From Acidimicrobiales bacterium (GTDB lineage: Bacteria; Actinomycetota; Acidimicrobiia; Acidimicrobiales; Acidimicrobilacustridaceae): DNA of 64,000 nt. Positions 28,651 to 45,383 of this stretch are shown piece after piece. The translations under genes and the position numbers were made by a program. The notes below the pieces were generated by a model, which saw only the letters and a program-made list of their open reading frames with translations, was not told the DNA's origin and made no database searches. The stretch lies in assembly GCA_025455885.1 (NCBI GenBank), contig JALOLR010000008.1:124001-188000 (forward strand), given 5' to 3'. The stretch's first letter is position 1. Every line of letters starts with the position of its first letter.

Positions 28651-29064
28651 ATGAAGTTGATCGGCAAGGTCGCCCAGACCGTGGCAGCGCTGTGGATCCT
28701 GAACGTCTGGTTCAACCGGTTCAACAAGGACACCGGTTACCGGGGGGGCGACGCGAAGAACATGAAAGAGGAGTTCGAGGTGTACGGGCTCTCGGAGACC
28801 CAGATGTACGCCGTGGGTGCGGCCAAGGTGGGCCTGGCGGGCCTGATGCTCGCGGGAAATGTGGTCCCGCGGGTCACGCGGCCGGCCTCGATCGGTCTGG
28901 CGGCGTTCATGCTGGGCGCCATCGGCATGCACATCAAGGTCGGAGACCCCGTGAAGCGCTACCTGCCGGCGCTCACCGTCTTCTCGCTGTCCACGATCTC
29001 TGCGGTGCTCAACGGCAACGACCGCCGCCCGACGCCGGTGGACGCGTCACTCACGGCGCAGTGA
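28651..29064 (+). CDS. DoxX-type small membrane protein
   Basis: The 137-residue protein has four hydrophobic helices and the DoxX-like motif EEFEVYGLSETQMYAVGAAK, with a helix of LAGLMLAGNVVP. DoxX family members associate with thiol and quinone redox at the membrane. Its last 22 codons and the following 400 bp are duplicated at 44.7 kb. It faces the DoxX-like gene at 29102 tail to tail, with only 37 bp between their stops. Confidence 0.78.
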   Translation: MKLIGKVAQTVAALWILNVWFNRFNKDTGYRGGDAKNMKEEFEVYGLSETQMYAVGAAKVGLAGLMLAGNVVPRVTRPASIGLAAFMLGAIGMHIKVGDPVKRYLPALTVFSLSTISAVLNGNDRRPTPVDASLTAQ

Positions 29065-29575
29065 GGCGTCGGTGAGGCGTCGCCGCCGCGTCACTGAGAC
29101 CTCACTGCGTGAGGAAGAGCACGAACAGCACGGCGTTGAGGGCGCCGAGTGACGCGGCGGGCATCATGAGACGCGGTGGGTCGTGGATCCTGAGGCGCAC
29201 GATCAGCCCGAGGGCCATCATCGTCGTGAGCCCGGCCGCAGCGATGGCCCCCAGCGGCGCGAAGGCCAGGCCGAGCATGACCGCTGTTCCGCCGAGGATC
29301 TCCAGGAGGCCCACCAGTCGACGAAAGCCAGGCAGTCCGTACCGTTCGAACTCGTCCTTCAGGTCAGTGCGGGACAGGACCCCGGACCCGTAGTAGAGGA
29401 ACGACAGCCCCGAGACGAGCGCCAACACCACCAGGACCACCGGGCACGGTACGTCGACGTTCTCGACCACTCACAATCGGTGTCGCCGCCGTGGTCGAGC
29501 GGATCAGCGGGTCCCGCCTGGGGTGGCGGGTCATCGATCGATGAGCCGGAGGGCGAGGCGGCGGCCTCTCCCCTG
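28997..29575. repeat. Segmental duplication, copy A (copy B at 44696)
   Basis: From 28997 the sequence matches 44696 onwards: the last codons of a DoxX gene, the inter-stop spacer, the whole 122-codon DoxX-like gene, its upstream region and, more weakly, the last codons of the NADP-binding protein gene. Copy A has 11 extra bases in the spacer (near 29080). Divergence is a few per cent in the coding part. Confidence 0.85.
29102..29470 (-). CDS. DoxX-family membrane protein, copy A
   Basis: The 122-residue protein, starting with GTG, has four hydrophobic helices; the motif KDEFERYGLPGFRRLVGLLE followed by ILGGTAVMLGLAFAP is typical of DoxX/DUF4870-like proteins. A near-identical copy is encoded at 44790-45158 (differences such as TDLKDEF against TELKDEF). 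It faces the DoxX gene at 28651 and may work with a redox partner. The gene probably encodes a membrane thiol/quinone-related protein, but the substrate is not known. Confidence 0.8.
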   Translation of the reverse strand: MVENVDVPCPVVLVVLALVSGLSFLYYGSGVLSRTDLKDEFERYGLPGFRRLVGLLEILGGTAVMLGLAFAPLGAIAAAGLTTMMALGLIVRLRIHDPPRLMMPAASLGALNAVLFVLFLTQ

Positions 29576-34966: not shown

Positions 34967-36181
34967 TCACCCACTCGACGACGTCGCCGGGTCGTCGGTG
35001 CTGCTGGGAGCCGAGCCGGACACCGTGGCGTACCAGTCGACCAGTCGGGTGGCGATCTCGGTGCCCTGATCGTCCTGGAGGAAGTGGCTCGCCTCGGGGA
35101 GACGGTCGTGGGGTTGACCCGCGGCACCGGGAACCGAGTCGATGAAGTTCTGCTGGGCCGCGCAGCTCCCGAGCTGGCCGGGGTCGTTGGTGGCCCAGAG
35201 GGTGAGGAAGGGCTTCTCGTAGGCGTCGAGACCAGCCCGTGCGGCCTCGGTGGTGCCCGGAATCTCGTTGATCAACGACGGGAAGGTCCGCGTTCCGGCC
35301 ATGTAGGTGCGGCTCGGGAACGGCGCGTCGTAGGCGGCCTCCTCGTCGTCGGGGACGTCGAACCAGGTCAACGCCTCGACCGTCTCGGACGGCCGGAACG
35401 ACTCCGCCGTCATGGCGTAGGCCATCCAGTTGCCGAAGTAGCCCGGCTCGGCGACGGTGAGCGGTTCGCAGCCGTCGTAGAAGAGCGGCTGTTGGGGCGG
35501 GATCGCGGCGTACGGGGCGGTGAGGTCGGTGAGCTCGTCGGGGTTCTCGACCGGCGGGTAGAGCTCGGTGCCGGCAGGGTCCACGGGGAGTGCGCCGTCG
35601 CCGACGGCGATGGTCGCGAACAGGTCCGGGTTCTGGCCGGCCACGCGCAGGCCGATGACGCTGCCCCAGTCCTGCACGAACAGGTTGATGTCGGTCAGAC
35701 CGAGCTCGCCGATGAACTGTTCGAGGCGGTCGGAGTGGCCGAGGTAGCTGTAGGAGTCGATCTCGGTCGGCTTGTCGGAGCGGCCCATGCCGAGGTGGTC
35801 CATGGCGATCACCCGGTAGCCGGCGTCGACGAGCACGGGGATCATGTCGCGGTACAGGTACGACCACGCCGGTTGGCCGTGCAGGAGCAGGACGACCTCG
35901 CCGTCGGACGGGCCCTCGTCGACGTAGGCCTGGCGGAGCCCGTCGATCTCGACGTACTTCGGTTCGTAGGGCCAACCCGGCAGTCCCTCGAAGCACGCGT
36001 CGGGAGTACGGACGTACTCGACTCCGGACTGGGTGGTGCGGACCTCCGGTTCGGCATCGCAGGGAACCACTGCCGCGGTCGTCGTGACCTGAGGTGTCTC
36101 CAGCGCCTCGTCGTCGGCCGCGTCACCGCTACAACTGGCCACGACCAACATCGCGGCGCTGACGAGCGCGACCCGCGCCAC
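34967..36181 (-). CDS. Lipoprotein alpha/beta hydrolase, haloalkane-dehalogenase-like
   Basis: The mature hydrolase shows LLHGQPAWSYLYR (oxyanion hole), DHLGMGRSDKP, nucleophile Asp in VQDWGSVIG, and the His motif ASHFLQDDQG; this set matches the haloalkane dehalogenase family. The N-terminus has a lipoprotein signal (VARVALVSAAMLVVASC, lipobox VASC), so it is membrane-anchored outside the cell; dehalogenases are usually cytoplasmic. The GTG at 36181 is chosen. The frame is also open from an ATG at 36358, which would make a chimera with ABC-transporter sequences (see that entry). Substrate unproven. Confidence 0.78.
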   Translation of the reverse strand: MARVALVSAAMLVVASCSGDAADDEALETPQVTTTAAVVPCDAEPEVRTTQSGVEYVRTPDACFEGLPGWPYEPKYVEIDGLRQAYVDEGPSDGEVVLLLHGQPAWSYLYRDMIPVLVDAGYRVIAMDHLGMGRSDKPTEIDSYSYLGHSDRLEQFIGELGLTDINLFVQDWGSVIGLRVAGQNPDLFATIAVGDGALPVDPAGTELYPPVENPDELTDLTAPYAAIPPQQPLFYDGCEPLTVAEPGYFGNWMAYAMTAESFRPSETVEALTWFDVPDDEEAAYDAPFPSRTYMAGTRTFPSLINEIPGTTEAARAGLDAYEKPFLTLWATNDPGQLGSCAAQQNFIDSVPGAAGQPHDRLPEASHFLQDDQGTEIATRLVDWYATVSGSAPSSTDDPATSSSG

Positions 36182-36241
36182 GAGACGATTCGCGGACGAC
36201 GAGGAACGAGGGGTTCCTCGCGCCGCGCTGGAGACCGATCT

Positions 36242-36358
36242 GCCTGCTGCGAACAGCGCGAGCCTGGTGGAGCGCACCGACCAGAACTTGGTCCACCCAC
36301 GACGAACGAGGGCGCGGGTCTCGCCGTAGGCCTTGGTGAGGTTTCTGAAGTGGATCAT
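36242..36358 (-). pseudogene. In-frame chimera of ABC ATPase and ABC permease N-terminal fragments
   Basis: Reading from ATG 36358, MIHFRNLTKAYGE matches the first 13 residues of the ABC ATPase encoded at 39266-40216, and then WTKFWSVRSTRLALFAAG (36295-36242) matches residues 58-75 of the ABC permease at 38367-39269. The two pieces are joined in one frame with the hydrolase downstream. This is a rearranged remnant of a second ABC operon copy, and together with the duplicated promoter it could still drive translation into the hydrolase. Confidence 0.75.
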
Positions 36359-36411
36359 GCGTCCATCGTGCGGGTTCGGAGGCCGAGCCGAGTCCCCCAC
36401 CGGGAGGCTTC

Positions 36412-36437
36412 TCGCCTACTCCCCGGGGAGTAGGCGA
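36412..36437. promoter_or_regulatory. Perfect 26-bp palindrome, operator candidate (copy 1)
   Basis: TCGCCTACTCCCC followed by its exact reverse complement forms a perfect 26-bp palindrome ending 54 bp before the chimeric ATG at 36358. The 18-bp core CTACTCCCCGGGGAGTAG recurs at 40274-40291 before the intact ABC operon, with flanks also similar. It is likely the binding site of a dimeric regulator, perhaps one of the neighbouring NarL-type response regulators. Confidence 0.7.
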
Positions 36438-36542
36438 CCCGTGCATTCGTCGGGCGGTCGTGGGGACTCCCCTCCCCGACGGGCCAGCGCCCGTCGCTGC
36501 GGAGTGGGCCGACCCGACACCGGGCGGTTGTCGGGCCGGGGA

Positions 36543-37214
36543 TCACCCGAGGTCGTCGAGGCGGGTCAGCCCACTGCGGAACGCCAGCACGACGAGCTGG
36601 GCGCGGTCGCGGGCGTGGAGCTTGATCATCGCCCGGCTGACGTGGGTCTTCACGGTCAGCGGGGAGAGGTAGAGGGCGTCGGCGATCTCGTCGTTCGACA
36701 GGCCGCGGCCGACCATGGCGACGACCTCGCGTTCGCGCCCCGTCAGCACGCGCACGGCGTCCTCGTCGACAACGGTGGGCGCCGCCGCGCCGGTCATCGA
36801 CCCCAACAGGGCACGTGTCGCCTTCGGGGTGAGCAGGGCGTCGCCACCGGCGACCACGCGGATGGCGTCGAGGAGCACGTCGGGATCGACGCCTTTGTCG
36901 AGGAAGCCGCTGGCCCCGGCGCGCATGGCGTCGACGACGTACTCGTCGAGCTCGAACGTGGTGAGCACGATCACGCGCACCCCGGCGAGATCCTCGTCGG
37001 CGGTGATGGCCTGCGTCGTGGCGATGCCGTCGCGGCCGGGCATGCGCACGTCCATCAACACCACGTCGGCCCGCCGGTCACGGATCACCTCGAGCGCGGT
37101 GGCGCCGTCGTCGCTCTCGCCGACCACTTGGAGGTCGGGCGCCGAGTCGACGATCGCCTTGAACCCGGCGCGGATCAACGCCTGGTCGTCGACCAACACC
37201 ACGCGGATCGTCAC
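36543..37214 (-). CDS. NarL/FixJ-type response regulator
   Basis: The 223-residue protein has a receiver (Asp9/Asp10, phospho-acceptor Asp55 in VVLMDVRMPG, lysine in GFLDKGV) and a LuxR-type HTH (LTGREREVVAMVGRGLSNDEIADAL, LSPLTVKTHVSRAMIKLHA). The GTG start at 37214 overlaps the TGA of the histidine kinase gene by 3 bp. It is a candidate for binding the nearby palindromes. Confidence 0.93.
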   Translation of the reverse strand: MTIRVVLVDDQALIRAGFKAIVDSAPDLQVVGESDDGATALEVIRDRRADVVLMDVRMPGRDGIATTQAITADEDLAGVRVIVLTTFELDEYVVDAMRAGASGFLDKGVDPDVLLDAIRVVAGGDALLTPKATRALLGSMTGAAAPTVVDEDAVRVLTGREREVVAMVGRGLSNDEIADALYLSPLTVKTHVSRAMIKLHARDRAQLVVLAFRSGLTRLDDLG

Positions 37215-38365
37215 GACCCCGCCTCCGCGTCGACGGGCAGCCAGGCCTCGACCACGAACCGGTCGGCGTCGGCATCGATCGACAGGCGCCCGCCGTTGAC
37301 GGCCGCCCGCTCGCGCATGCCGACCAGGCCGAGCCCGGCGCCGGTCTCGTCGACCACCCCGGTCGTGGGGTTCTCGATCCTGATGGTCAGCCCGTCGTCG
37401 GTCCACGCCATGGTGAGCACGACCGAGCCGTCGCCGTGCTTGGCGGCGTTGGTGAGTCCCTCCTGCACGATCCGGTAGGCGGCGAGCGACGCCACCGACG
37501 ACAAGGGGCGCGGCGCTCCGGCACGGTTCCAGTCGACGTGGAGCCCCGTGGCGCGCATCGTGTCGACGAGGCGGTCGACGTCGTCGGCCGACGGCAGCGA
37601 CGACATGGGCGCCGCCGCGTCGTGCTCGTGTCGGAGCACCGACAGCAGCTCCCGCAGCTCGTCGAGGACGGTTCGGCCGGCGTCACGCGCCGTCATCAAC
37701 GACGCCTCGGCCTGGTCGGGATCGCGGCGCAGCAGGTGGAGCGCGGCGCCGGTCTGCACGTTCATCACCGAGAGGTTGTGGGCCAGGAGGTCGTGCAGCT
37801 CGCGGGCGATCACCAGGCGCTCCTCCGACACCTGCCGACTGGCCTCGGCCTCCGCCGCCAGCAGTGCCGCCTGCAGCTCGGCCTCCGCGCTCTCGGTGTA
37901 GCGGCGCCACGAGCGGGTGGCGTCGGCGATGCCCACTGCGCCGGCGGTCCAGGCGATCCCGATCATCGCCCGCGCGTCGCCGAACTCGGTGTCGTTGGCC
38001 GCATACCCGAGCGTGTAGAGCCAGGCGGCGACCACCGTGCCGAGCGCGATCGCCGGCCACCGCTCGAGGCGGATGCAGGCGGTCGTCAGCAGCACGAGCA
38101 CGGCGAACACCATCGCCGTCGGTCGGTCCCAGACCACCACGTGCACGGTGGTCCAGACCATGGCGATCGCGAGGAGCGTGAGCGGTTGCCATCGACGCAA
38201 CGCCACGAGCACGAACGCGCCGACGCCGGCCGCCACTTCGGGCCAGCCGGCGTCGTGGTCGTCGGGGGCGCCCAGCACGAGCAGCGTCCCGATGAGCGAG
38301 GTCAGGGCGGCGATCGCCAGGTCGAGCCGGCGGGGGTCGGCTCGGAGCCAGGCGACCGCCGACAC
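37211..38365 (-). CDS. NarL-type sensor histidine kinase (DesK-like)
   Basis: The 384-residue protein has five membrane helices in residues 15-150, a coiled-coil linker, HisKA_3 with VIARELHDLLAHNLSVM (phospho-His near 195) and HATPase (N box EGLTNAAKHG, G box GAGLGLVGMRERAA). It is typical of kinases that sense membrane state and control a linked ABC exporter. It lies 1 bp after the ABC permease gene, and with the response regulator forms the end of a four-gene ABC/two-component operon. Confidence 0.92.
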   Translation of the reverse strand: MSAVAWLRADPRRLDLAIAALTSLIGTLLVLGAPDDHDAGWPEVAAGVGAFVLVALRRWQPLTLLAIAMVWTTVHVVVWDRPTAMVFAVLVLLTTACIRLERWPAIALGTVVAAWLYTLGYAANDTEFGDARAMIGIAWTAGAVGIADATRSWRRYTESAEAELQAALLAAEAEASRQVSEERLVIARELHDLLAHNLSVMNVQTGAALHLLRRDPDQAEASLMTARDAGRTVLDELRELLSVLRHEHDAAAPMSSLPSADDVDRLVDTMRATGLHVDWNRAGAPRPLSSVASLAAYRIVQEGLTNAAKHGDGSVVLTMAWTDDGLTIRIENPTTGVVDETGAGLGLVGMRERAAVNGGRLSIDADADRFVVEAWLPVDAEAGS

Positions 38366-38366
38366 C

Positions 38367-39269
38367 TCAGGCGTCCCGCTTCTGCACGAGGTACCCGGCC
38401 AGGGCGAGCAGGCCGATCACCCAGGCGAGGAACACCGCGTAGCCGGCACCACGGCTGAGCAGCTCAGGATCGGTCACCTGGGTCATCATCGCATCGCCGG
38501 CCTCGGAGGGCAGGTACTTCATGAACACGTCGGTGATGCTGTCGGGCAGCAGGTTCAACAGGTTGGGGCCGATGAACACGGCGCCCACCAGCGTGGCGAT
38601 GCCCGCCGCGGTCGAGCGCAGGAGGAACCCAAGGGCCAGGCCGATCAGGCCGATGCCGGTCAGGTAGACGACGGAGCCGAGGATCACGTCGAGGGCGTCG
38701 GCGAGCGGGACGGTCGCCAGGTCACCGGCGTAGACCGCCTGGCCGAGGACGACCGCGGCGACGACGGCGACGACGGCCATGGCGACCACCGAGGTGACGA
38801 GCACGGCGGACTTCGCCCACAGCACGGTGGTCCGGCGGCCGACCGCGGCGAACGTGGTGCGGATCAGGCCGGTCGAGTACTCGCCGGCGACGATCAGCAC
38901 GCCGAGGACGCCGACGATCATCTCGCCGAGCGCCATGCCGGCGAGGGCCAGGTCGAGCGGCTCGATCAGCAGGGCGGCCGGGCCGGCGGCTTCGCCGGAC
39001 TCGGCGACGGCCGAGAAGATCATGCCGAACACGACGGTGACGACGCCGGCGGCGAGCAGCGCCAGCCGGGTCGAGCGGACCGACCAGAACTTGGTCCACT
39101 CCCCGCGGGCGACGTTCCAGGTGCGGACCCGTCCGTCGGGTGGTGGGACTGTGGCATCGGTGGTGGGGTCGGTGGCCGTCGTATCGACGACGGTGCTGGT
39201 GTCGAGGGTGGTGGTCATCGGGGTCTCCCAGGTGGGGTCGGAACGGTCCGTGGTCGTCGGCGGGATCAT
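38367..39269 (-). CDS. ABC-2 type transporter permease
   Basis: The 300-residue protein has an N-terminal soluble part of about 55 residues rich in Thr/Asp, then six membrane helices, including VVTVVFGMIFSAVA, ALGEMIVGVLGVLIVAGEYS, SAVLVTSVVAMAVVAVVAAV and GIGLIGLALGFLL. The motif GEYSTGLIRTTFAAVGRR is typical of ABC-2 permeases. The 4-bp overlap with the ATPase gene (39266-39269) couples their translation; an alternative ATG at 39218 has GGGAG upstream. The exported substrate is not known. Confidence 0.88.
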   Translation of the reverse strand: MIPPTTTDRSDPTWETPMTTTLDTSTVVDTTATDPTTDATVPPPDGRVRTWNVARGEWTKFWSVRSTRLALLAAGVVTVVFGMIFSAVAESGEAAGPAALLIEPLDLALAGMALGEMIVGVLGVLIVAGEYSTGLIRTTFAAVGRRTTVLWAKSAVLVTSVVAMAVVAVVAAVVLGQAVYAGDLATVPLADALDVILGSVVYLTGIGLIGLALGFLLRSTAAGIATLVGAVFIGPNLLNLLPDSITDVFMKYLPSEAGDAMMTQVTDPELLSRGAGYAVFLAWVIGLLALAGYLVQKRDA

Positions 39270-40216
39270 GCGGCGATCGGGCTGGCGGGCGAGGTGGCGG
39301 GCGGGGCGGCGGAGACGTGGCCGTGGTACTCGACGGCACCGGCGGTGAGCTCCATGAACACGTCCTCGAGCGAGCGGCGCTCGGGGACGAGGCGGGTGAG
39401 GGCGATGCCGTGGTCGCGGGCGATCTCGCCGATCTGCTCCGGGTCGCGTCCCGTCACGCTGACGGTGCCGCGATCGGACGATTCGATCGTGACGCCGTCG
39501 GCTCGCAGCAGCCCGACGAGGTCGTCGAGGCGGTCGGCGCTCACGTGGGTGGTGTGGCTGTCCGCCATCGCCCGCAGGTCGTCGGCGGAGATGTCCTGGA
39601 TCATGCGACCCCGACCGATGATCACGTAGTGCTCGGCCATCAGCTCCATCTCGCTCATCAGGTGTGACGAGACGAACACGGTGCGGCCCTCGCGGGCGAG
39701 GTCCTGGAGCAGGTTGCGGATCCAGAGGATGCCTTCGGGGTCGAGGCCGTTGACCGGCTCGTCGAGCATCACGACCTGCGGATCGCCGAGGAGGGCGCCG
39801 GCGATGCCAAGGCGTTGTCCCATCCCGAGCGAGAAGCCCCCGCTGCCCCGGCGGGCGACCTCGCCGAGGCCGACGATGTCGAGCACCTCGTCGACCCGGT
39901 CGGTGCTGATGCGGTTGGTGACGGCGAGGGCCCGCAGGTGGTCGTAGGCGGACCGTCTGGGGTGGACCGCCTTGGCCTCGAGCAGCGCACCCATCGAGCG
40001 GAGGGGGAACGGATGCTCGGCGATGGGGCGCCCGTCGACGGTCGCGGTGCCCGACGTGGGGGCGTCGAGGCCGAGGATCATGCGCATCGTGGTCGACTTG
40101 CCGGCGCCGTTCGGGCCGAGGAAGCCGGTGACGATGCCCGGGTTGACGGTGAAGGTGAGGTCGTCGACGGCGAGGTGCTCGCCGTAGGCCTTGGTGAGGT
40201 TCTTGACGTGGATCAT
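39266..40216 (-). CDS. ABC transporter ATP-binding protein
   Basis: The 316-residue ATPase has Walker A GPNGAGKST (residues 34-42), the variant signature FSLGMGQRLGIA, Walker B VVMLDEPVNGLDPEG and the switch histidine in VFVSSHLMSE. The C-terminal domain after residue 215 is typical of ABC-2 exporter ATPases. It is the first gene of the operon ATPase-permease-kinase-regulator, and a palindrome lies 58 bp upstream of its ATG. Such operons often give resistance to antimicrobial peptides or lipid stress. Confidence 0.93.
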   Translation of the reverse strand: MIHVKNLTKAYGEHLAVDDLTFTVNPGIVTGFLGPNGAGKSTTMRMILGLDAPTSGTATVDGRPIAEHPFPLRSMGALLEAKAVHPRRSAYDHLRALAVTNRISTDRVDEVLDIVGLGEVARRGSGGFSLGMGQRLGIAGALLGDPQVVMLDEPVNGLDPEGILWIRNLLQDLAREGRTVFVSSHLMSEMELMAEHYVIIGRGRMIQDISADDLRAMADSHTTHVSADRLDDLVGLLRADGVTIESSDRGTVSVTGRDPEQIGEIARDHGIALTRLVPERRSLEDVFMELTAGAVEYHGHVSAAPPATSPASPIAA

Positions 40217-40273
40217 GCCGTCATCGTGCGGGTTCGACGACCGAACCGAATCCGCCGCCGGGAGGCTTCTCGG

Positions 40274-40291
40274 CTACTCCCCGGGGAGTAG
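40274..40291. promoter_or_regulatory. Perfect 18-bp palindrome, operator candidate (copy 2)
   Basis: CTACTCCCCGGGGAGTAG lies 58 bp upstream of the ABC ATPase start. The same 18 bp and similar flanks (GGGAGGCTTCTCGxCTACTC before, GACCCGTGCAT after) occur at 36416-36433. It probably is the operator of the ABC operon. Confidence 0.72.
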
Positions 40292-40412
40292 ACGACCCGT
40301 GCATGCATCAGGTTCAGCTGAGCGAGCGCTCACCAGCACCTGACCGCTTGGTCCACACTCATGGCGCGGACTCCCTGTGGGGCTGGTCGTTGGGGGCCCC
40401 GGGTCGAGCGCC

Positions 40413-44536: not shown

Positions 44537-44695
44537 GATCGAGCAGTCCGTTGAGCAGCATCTGTCTCAGCACGACCGAGCCTCAGGTATTCCCGCCGCG
44601 GGGATGTCCGACCCTCCGCTCGGTCCGAAGGACGGCGAACTCGCACCGACCGATGGTGGGACTCGAGCGGGTGAGCGATGGTGCGATCGGGACGG

Positions 44696-44763
44696 TCTCT
44701 GCGGTGCTCAACGGCAACGACCGCCGCCCGACGCCGGTCGACGCGTCACTGACGACGCAGTGA
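44696..44763 (+). pseudogene. DoxX 3'-end remnant
   Basis: The frame reads SAVLNGNDRRPTPVDASLT then TQ and stop, the same C-terminus as the DoxX protein encoded at 28651-29064. The sequence upstream is unrelated, so only the tail of the gene is present. It is part of the segmental duplication. Confidence 0.8.
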
Positions 44764-44789
44764 GGCGTCGGTGAGGCGTCGCTGACACC

Positions 44790-45158
44790 TCACTGCGTGA
44801 GGAAGAGCACGACGAGCACGGCGTTGAGAGCGCCGAGTGACGCGGCGGGCACCATGAGACGCGGTGGGTCGTGGATCCTGAGGCGCACGATCAGCCCGAG
44901 GGCCATCATCGTCGTGAGCCCGGCCGCGGCGACGGCCCCCAGCGGCGCGAAGGCCAAGCCGAGCATGACCGCTGTTCCGCCGAGGATCTCCAAGAGGCCC
45001 ACCAGTCGACGAAAGCCAGGCAGTCCGTACCGTTCGAACTCGTCCTTCAGCTCAGTGCGGGACAGGACCCCGGACCCGTAGTAGAGGAACGACAGCCCCG
45101 AGACGAGCGTCAACACCACCAGGACCACCGGGCACGGTACGTCGACGTTCTCGACCAC
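44790..45158 (-). CDS. DoxX-family membrane protein, copy B
   Basis: The 122-residue protein with GTG start is near-identical to the one at 29102-29470 (for example VLTLVSG instead of VLALVSG, and TELKDEF instead of TDLKDEF), with four hydrophobic helices. Reading frame and start are intact, so it may be expressed, but it has lost the NADP-binding gene that precedes copy A. A longer in-frame extension to 45206 exists in this copy only and has no support. Confidence 0.78.
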   Translation of the reverse strand: MVENVDVPCPVVLVVLTLVSGLSFLYYGSGVLSRTELKDEFERYGLPGFRRLVGLLEILGGTAVMLGLAFAPLGAVAAAGLTTMMALGLIVRLRIHDPPRLMVPAASLGALNAVLVVLFLTQ

Positions 45159-45383
45159 CCACAATCGACGTGGATGTACCAGCCGAGGGGGCCGGCGGGG
45201 TCTCACTGGAGCGCAGAGTCAACGATCGATGAGCCGGAGAGCGAGCAGGCGGCCTCGGGAGGGAACCGCACTGGAACCACCTCGGTCAGCTCGGCCCGCG
45301 GTCGTCGTCGAGCTGGGCCCTGGGGCTCCTGGTTCTCAGGCGTGGCGTAGAACGCACACTCCGCTTCGCGCGTCATCGTCCGA

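Follow-up and report, generated by a model that had tools for sequence, protein, structure and literature searches.

Apparent remnants of a duplicated ABC operon and its putative operator upstream of a haloalkane dehalogenase family lipoprotein gene in an Acidimicrobiales genome

The window, a 64,000-nucleotide stretch of contig JALOLR010000008.1 from an Acidimicrobiales bacterium, contains a block of features that all lie on the minus strand in the order P1, ABC ATPase, ABC permease, histidine kinase, LuxR/NarL-type regulator, P2, ATPase remnant, permease remnant and hydrolase (Table 1). The parent permease gave no Pfam or NCBIfam match, though its partner genes and gene order are conserved. 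The hairpin stretch between the regulator stop and P2 is possibly the end of the upstream operon.

Table 1. Coordinates of the parent operon, the remnants and the hydrolase gene in the window.
Feature	Coordinates	Strand	Basis or detail
P1, parent operator (putative)	40274..40291	-	palindrome identity with P2
Parent ABC ATPase, intact	39266..40216	-	PF00005
Parent ABC permease, intact; start overlaps ATPase stop	38367..39269	-	orthologues at the same place in relatives
Histidine kinase (HisKA_3), same operon	37211..38365	-	domain match; operon order kept in four relatives
LuxR/NarL-type response regulator (Response_reg/GerE), presumed ligand of both operators	36543..37214	-	domain matches
Stretch between regulator stop and P2, strong hairpins	36438..36545	-	fold -56.7 kcal/mol, a figure with no shuffle comparison behind it
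P2, second copy of palindromic putative operator; perfect 26-bp palindrome	36412..36437	-	core CTACTCCCCGGGGAGTAG at 36416-36433
-10-like CACGAT, ending 6 nt before the copied ATG	36365..36370	-	promoter alignment
ATPase gene remnant of the duplicate: start codon and first ~16 codons (MIHFRNLTKAYGETRA)	36311..36358	-	
Permease gene remnant of the duplicate: 23 codons, last 18 (WTKFWSVRSTRLALFAAG) well conserved	36242..36310	-	
Linker, no detectable homology, open in the fused frame, not coding-like	36182..36241	-	
Lipoprotein, haloalkane dehalogenase family; GTG start 36181, lipobox Cys codon 36133	34967..36181	-	NF002043, 4mj3

One open reading frame (36400..34967, minus strand), whose codons read ...MIHFRNLTKAYGETRALVRRGWTKFWSVRSTRLALFAAGR...VARVALVSAAMLVVASC..., runs from a copy of the ABC ATPase start through a piece of the ABC permease into the haloalkane dehalogenase family lipoprotein, with the chimeric ATG at 36358. 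BLAST of a 321-bp stretch against its own genome returned two matches in the parent operon and no further strong match. The larger pairs 36307-36454 with 40165-40312 (148 bp, 85% identity, E 2.8e-42) and comprises, on the minus strand of the 36242-36454 region, the ABC operon promoter and the first ~16 ATPase codons. The smaller pairs 36242-36296 with 39045-39099 in the permease (55 bp, 87%, E 1.9e-12), and ungapped permease homology is traceable over 69 nt (55/69 identical). Both matches are collinear with one operon and keep its order and orientation. A second intact permease paralogue was not found in the genome, the assembly of which is rated 100% complete. The initial annotation had described 13 ATPase and 18 permease residues in one frame with the hydrolase; its coordinates hold, and its counts are right as conserved cores, homology being traceable over about 16 and 23 codons. 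It had also proposed that a rearrangement placed a second ABC operon promoter in front of the hydrolase, and this is well supported by the 148-bp match, which places a segment homologous to the promoter of another transcription unit directly upstream of the gene. What it lacked was the context: the pieces appear to be what is left of a second copy of the entire operon.

ATPase homology extends to approximately codon 16 and permease homology takes over from approximately codon 53. The two meet around a GTC common to both, and this junction would fit a deletion at microhomology. Permease codon 75 is followed by a 60-nt linker for which no relatives were detected. Coding log-odds in the fused frame, in bits per codon, were +0.77 for the ATPase piece, +0.10 for the permease piece, -0.64 for the linker and +0.25 for the signal peptide, and the final 20 codons upstream of GTG 36181 are not coding-like. 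The linker contains a hairpin with a perfect 8-bp stem (CGAGGAAC-N5-GTTCCTCG, 36200-36220), situated between the permease remnant and the signal sequence and just 5' of GTG 36181; it is unconserved. This hairpin is present as a single copy in the genome, which rules it out as a repeat element. The frame is continuous and open across the junctions, as in a gene fusion. Chance would give an in-frame fusion at about 1/3 x 1/3 x 0.78, or about 9%, so the in-frame property taken alone is poor evidence. Over the whole fused leader no coding signature or selection was found, the linker scoring as above and the ATPase piece having changed mainly by replacement. The linker would argue against long-term coding of the fused leader, and it would be unusual for a lipoprotein signal to be preceded by ~60 residues of leader.

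P1 and P2 share the palindrome CTACTCCC-CG-GGGAGTAG, and the 18 bp are identical at 36416-36433 and 40274-40291, as the initial annotation had reported. The palindrome extends to a perfect 26 bp in the copy (36412-36437) and to 24/26 in the parent, and was found nowhere else in the genome at ≤1 mismatch over the 18 bp. Among 397 genomes of the order scanned with CTACTCCCNNGGGAGTAG (≤1 mismatch), 17 had matches, of which this genome alone had two sites and each other genome one. Matches were no more numerous than with a reversed-pattern control (about 30 genomes); the raw count is therefore uninformative, and the weight rests on the fixed place before the ATPase and on the neighbouring kinase and regulator genes. 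In seven other genomes of the order the palindrome lies 58-59 nt before the ATG of an ATPase that is 70-79% identical, and several further matches adjoin related kinase, regulator or ATPase genes. The 18-bp palindrome is a conserved upstream element of this type of ABC operon, at a set distance from the ATPase start. A literature search for the motif found no description of this operator and spacing in the operon family. The loci L105, L110, L112, L113, L116, L117 and L118 have the conserved operator and the probably leaderless architecture, and provide a candidate regulon motif. One match just after another alpha/beta-hydrolase gene (G268, L131) was judged to be due to chance.

The intact ABC operon, which the initial annotation had proposed seeking in relatives, is present in four of them, from other families of the same order, with the order promoter-ATPase-permease-kinase-regulator kept, ATPases 70-79% and regulators 76-80% identical, and one palindrome per stretch read. 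The operator and, 3' of it, an AAGCC block recur in the aligned promoters, most of which also have GGAT or GGAC near -35. CACGATG (6/9 aligned promoters) and CAAGATG (2/9) invariably sit at -12 to -6 relative to the ATG and give C-A-C/A-G-ATG in 8/9, a sequence that departs from TANNNT. Because this spacing leaves no space for a Shine-Dalgarno sequence before the ATG, we infer a leaderless start; the promoters of this ABC-ATPase operon are probably leaderless across families of the order.

The copy has diverged unevenly. Between P2 and P1, differences occur at 0/32 conserved positions (those without variation across the parent promoter and five others) and at 12/44 variable positions, a change of ~27% (Fisher p 0.0009). 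The 18-codon permease core has 6 silent changes and 1 replacement (pS 0.40, pN 0.03) and the 15 ATPase codons have 1 silent and 5 replacement changes, tallies that rest on small counts. Replacements prevail at the inner end of the permease piece, where most of five codons now specify another residue (VARGE to LVRRG). One replacement, H14T, probably occurred in the parent and not in the copy, because most relatives carry T at that position. ATPase H3 and permease TKFWSVRSTRLAL occur in the copy and in the operon of the same genome but in none of the relatives compared, so the copy is a within-lineage duplicate. The silent bias of the permease core indicates that the copy remained a functional coding sequence during part of its divergence. 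On this pattern, the duplicate would have been a functioning operon for a time and later relaxed on protein sequence, with the promoter kept intact; conservation of the promoter may date from the operon phase of the copy and is not necessarily current.

The hydrolase scores 302.7 bits against the NCBIfam haloalkane dehalogenase model NF002043 (curated cut-off 265). Its best solved relative is 4mj3 (E 5.5e-67), with the catalytic Asp, Trp, Asp and His aligned; in haloalkane dehalogenases these correspond to the nucleophile (Asp-Trp), the acid (Asp) and the His. By score and catalytic residues it is a member of this family, with predicted activity. The homologues have lipoprotein signals of the same type as VARVALVSAAMLVVASC, which is complete. 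The closest relatives are 62-75% identical, mostly of lipoprotein type, mostly from metagenome assemblies, and scattered over Bacteroidota, Gammaproteobacteria, Acidimicrobiia and others, a distribution that suggests horizontal transfer. Several haloalkane dehalogenase relatives are held at some other loci, L070 among them, and L069 has a tandem pair of paralogues on one contig (5855-6895 and 8001-9053).

The hydrolase homologues retrieved lack this promoter, with no ABC remnant or promoter match upstream of them, and the junction is therefore specific to this lineage. When the chimera was sought by DNA in 99 relatives it was absent, and both pieces occurred only in the intact operon of G063; the chimera is known from one genome only. 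Both the permease and a close hydrolase are absent from a same-genus relative, and a two-operon intermediate was not seen. The sister species is without the ABC operon and without a close hydrolase, having only a DsbA/HCCA-isomerase-like gene (58%), and its poor synteny means that no empty site is demonstrable.

Other duplications are observed in the window. A direct repeat (28993-29568 / 44692-45256; 576 bp, 89%), found nowhere else in the genome, has copies that flank the ABC/hydrolase region. It contains a complete DoxX-like gene (by eye), and the second copy also has only the last ~24 codons of a neighbour gene of the same type, making 44692-45256 another partial duplication with a truncated gene. 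Further partial duplications of 75-85% are 52416-52579/56076-56239, 28240-28409/54322-54493 and 46159-46264/47132-47237. This density of short duplications may point to a locally duplication-prone region; a random-piece control for repeats is uninformative, the window having other true duplications.

The explanation that we favour, with somewhat better than even confidence as a whole, is that a tandem operon copy collapsed and left the hydrolase with a conserved promoter under the adjacent regulator. The promoter-ATPase-permease-(kinase-regulator) operon would have been duplicated in tandem, and the second copy would have worked for a time. Deletion would then have joined ATPase codon ~17 to permease codon ~53, and permease codon ~75 would have been joined to the 5' region of the lipoprotein haloalkane dehalogenase gene. 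While we infer the order of these steps, a history of duplication and deletion is very probable, and the duplication and its fragments are directly observed. It would leave the hydrolase with a complete conserved promoter, its putative operator centred about 66 nt upstream of the ATG and served by the adjacent NarL-type response regulator, and its -10-like element placed for a leaderless transcript beginning at ATG 36358. Most likely, the hydrolase would be co-expressed with the ABC operon on activation of the kinase and regulator. The initial annotation took the locus as direct evidence of control by the ABC operon regulator. The same regulator is likely for P1 and P2 because the palindrome is a conserved promoter element of the operon family, but sequence is no direct evidence of regulation, and we consider control of the hydrolase by the adjacent regulator moderately probable. 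Promoter copying and protein fusion had also been presented as one event; the frame is open across the junctions, but these are separate claims with unequal support. As a leaderless promoter brings its own ATG, an in-frame join would yield a chimeric leader. Translation of this leader from ATG 36358 is possible, though rather doubtful, and the stronger proposal, that a leaderless promoter was captured with its start codon, forced the gene to fuse in frame and now yields an ATPase/permease-led chimera before the lipoprotein signal, seems to us unlikely.

Several alternatives bear on these points. The fragments might be an inert relic, with the hydrolase translated from GTG 36181 behind a short, normal lipoprotein signal and transcribed independently of the regulator. 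The non-coding score of the linker, the complete signal VARVALVSAAMLVVASC, the ~9% chance of an in-frame fusion and the unconserved hairpin just upstream of the GTG all favour this, yet the 26-bp operator and every conserved promoter position have stayed intact while variable positions changed by ~27%, inspection by eye showed nothing resembling a Shine-Dalgarno sequence before 36181, and strong hairpins separate the regulator gene from P2, so that the hydrolase needs some promoter. We regard it as a minority possibility that deserves to be kept in mind. It is improbable that no whole operon was duplicated and that the hydrolase 5' region instead received copies of two short operon stretches, each on its own or both in one templated patch. 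The window does have other short partial duplications of similar divergence (such as the 89% repeat), but the 6 silent to 1 replacement changes of the permease core imply a working coding phase, and the pieces keep the order and orientation of the operon and come shortly after the regulator gene, the expected starting point of a tandem copy. An assembly artefact that joined pieces of two similar operons is scarcely credible: the pieces do match one operon of the same genome, but they are 13-15% different from its sole intact copy, they lie inside a 302-kb contig, and the absence of a second paralogue from an assembly rated 100% complete argues against a chimera of this kind.

The locus has partial likenesses to known systems. 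Of the M. tuberculosis genes that have a primary TSS, roughly a quarter give leaderless transcripts, and the leaderless -10 is TANNNT (PMC3898074). The likeness to such actinobacterial leaderless genes would be a putative -10 ending about 6 nt before the ATG with no room for a 5' UTR; the candidate -10 here is CACGAT, not TANNNT. Should the chimera reading be true, leaderless promoters would gain a natural route to fusion proteins and to a larger two-component regulon. The hydrolase resembles NF002043, 4mj3 and DhlA (1b6g/1edb) in its whole-domain match above the cut-off and aligned catalytic residues, and differs in having a lipoprotein signal, additional cysteines and a cap region that is ~45 residues longer. 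The regulon may have grown by this one extracytoplasmic enzyme, a dehalogenase-type lipoprotein possibly made together with an ABC export system.

LnrJK consists of a HisKA_3 kinase and a LuxR/NarL-type regulator. B. subtilis LnrJK-LnrLMN (PMC7472640) is alike in that kinase and regulator adjoin their presumed target ABC transporter, whereas here there is one permease gene and the order is ATPase-permease-kinase-regulator; the comparison covers gene content and order. Silent genes are known to acquire promoters through deletion or tandem duplication (PMC11111574). Such promoter capture is mostly known from selection experiments. The present locus is apparently a natural instance of this mechanism in a single genome, an apparent fossil of one event, with predicted promoter activity. 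It shares with E. coli citT and horizontally transferred genes a duplicated or deletion-joined promoter before a non-native gene (PMC11111574), and differs from citT-type capture in being old, in a natural genome, and in having a putative regulated operator and a probably leaderless start codon.
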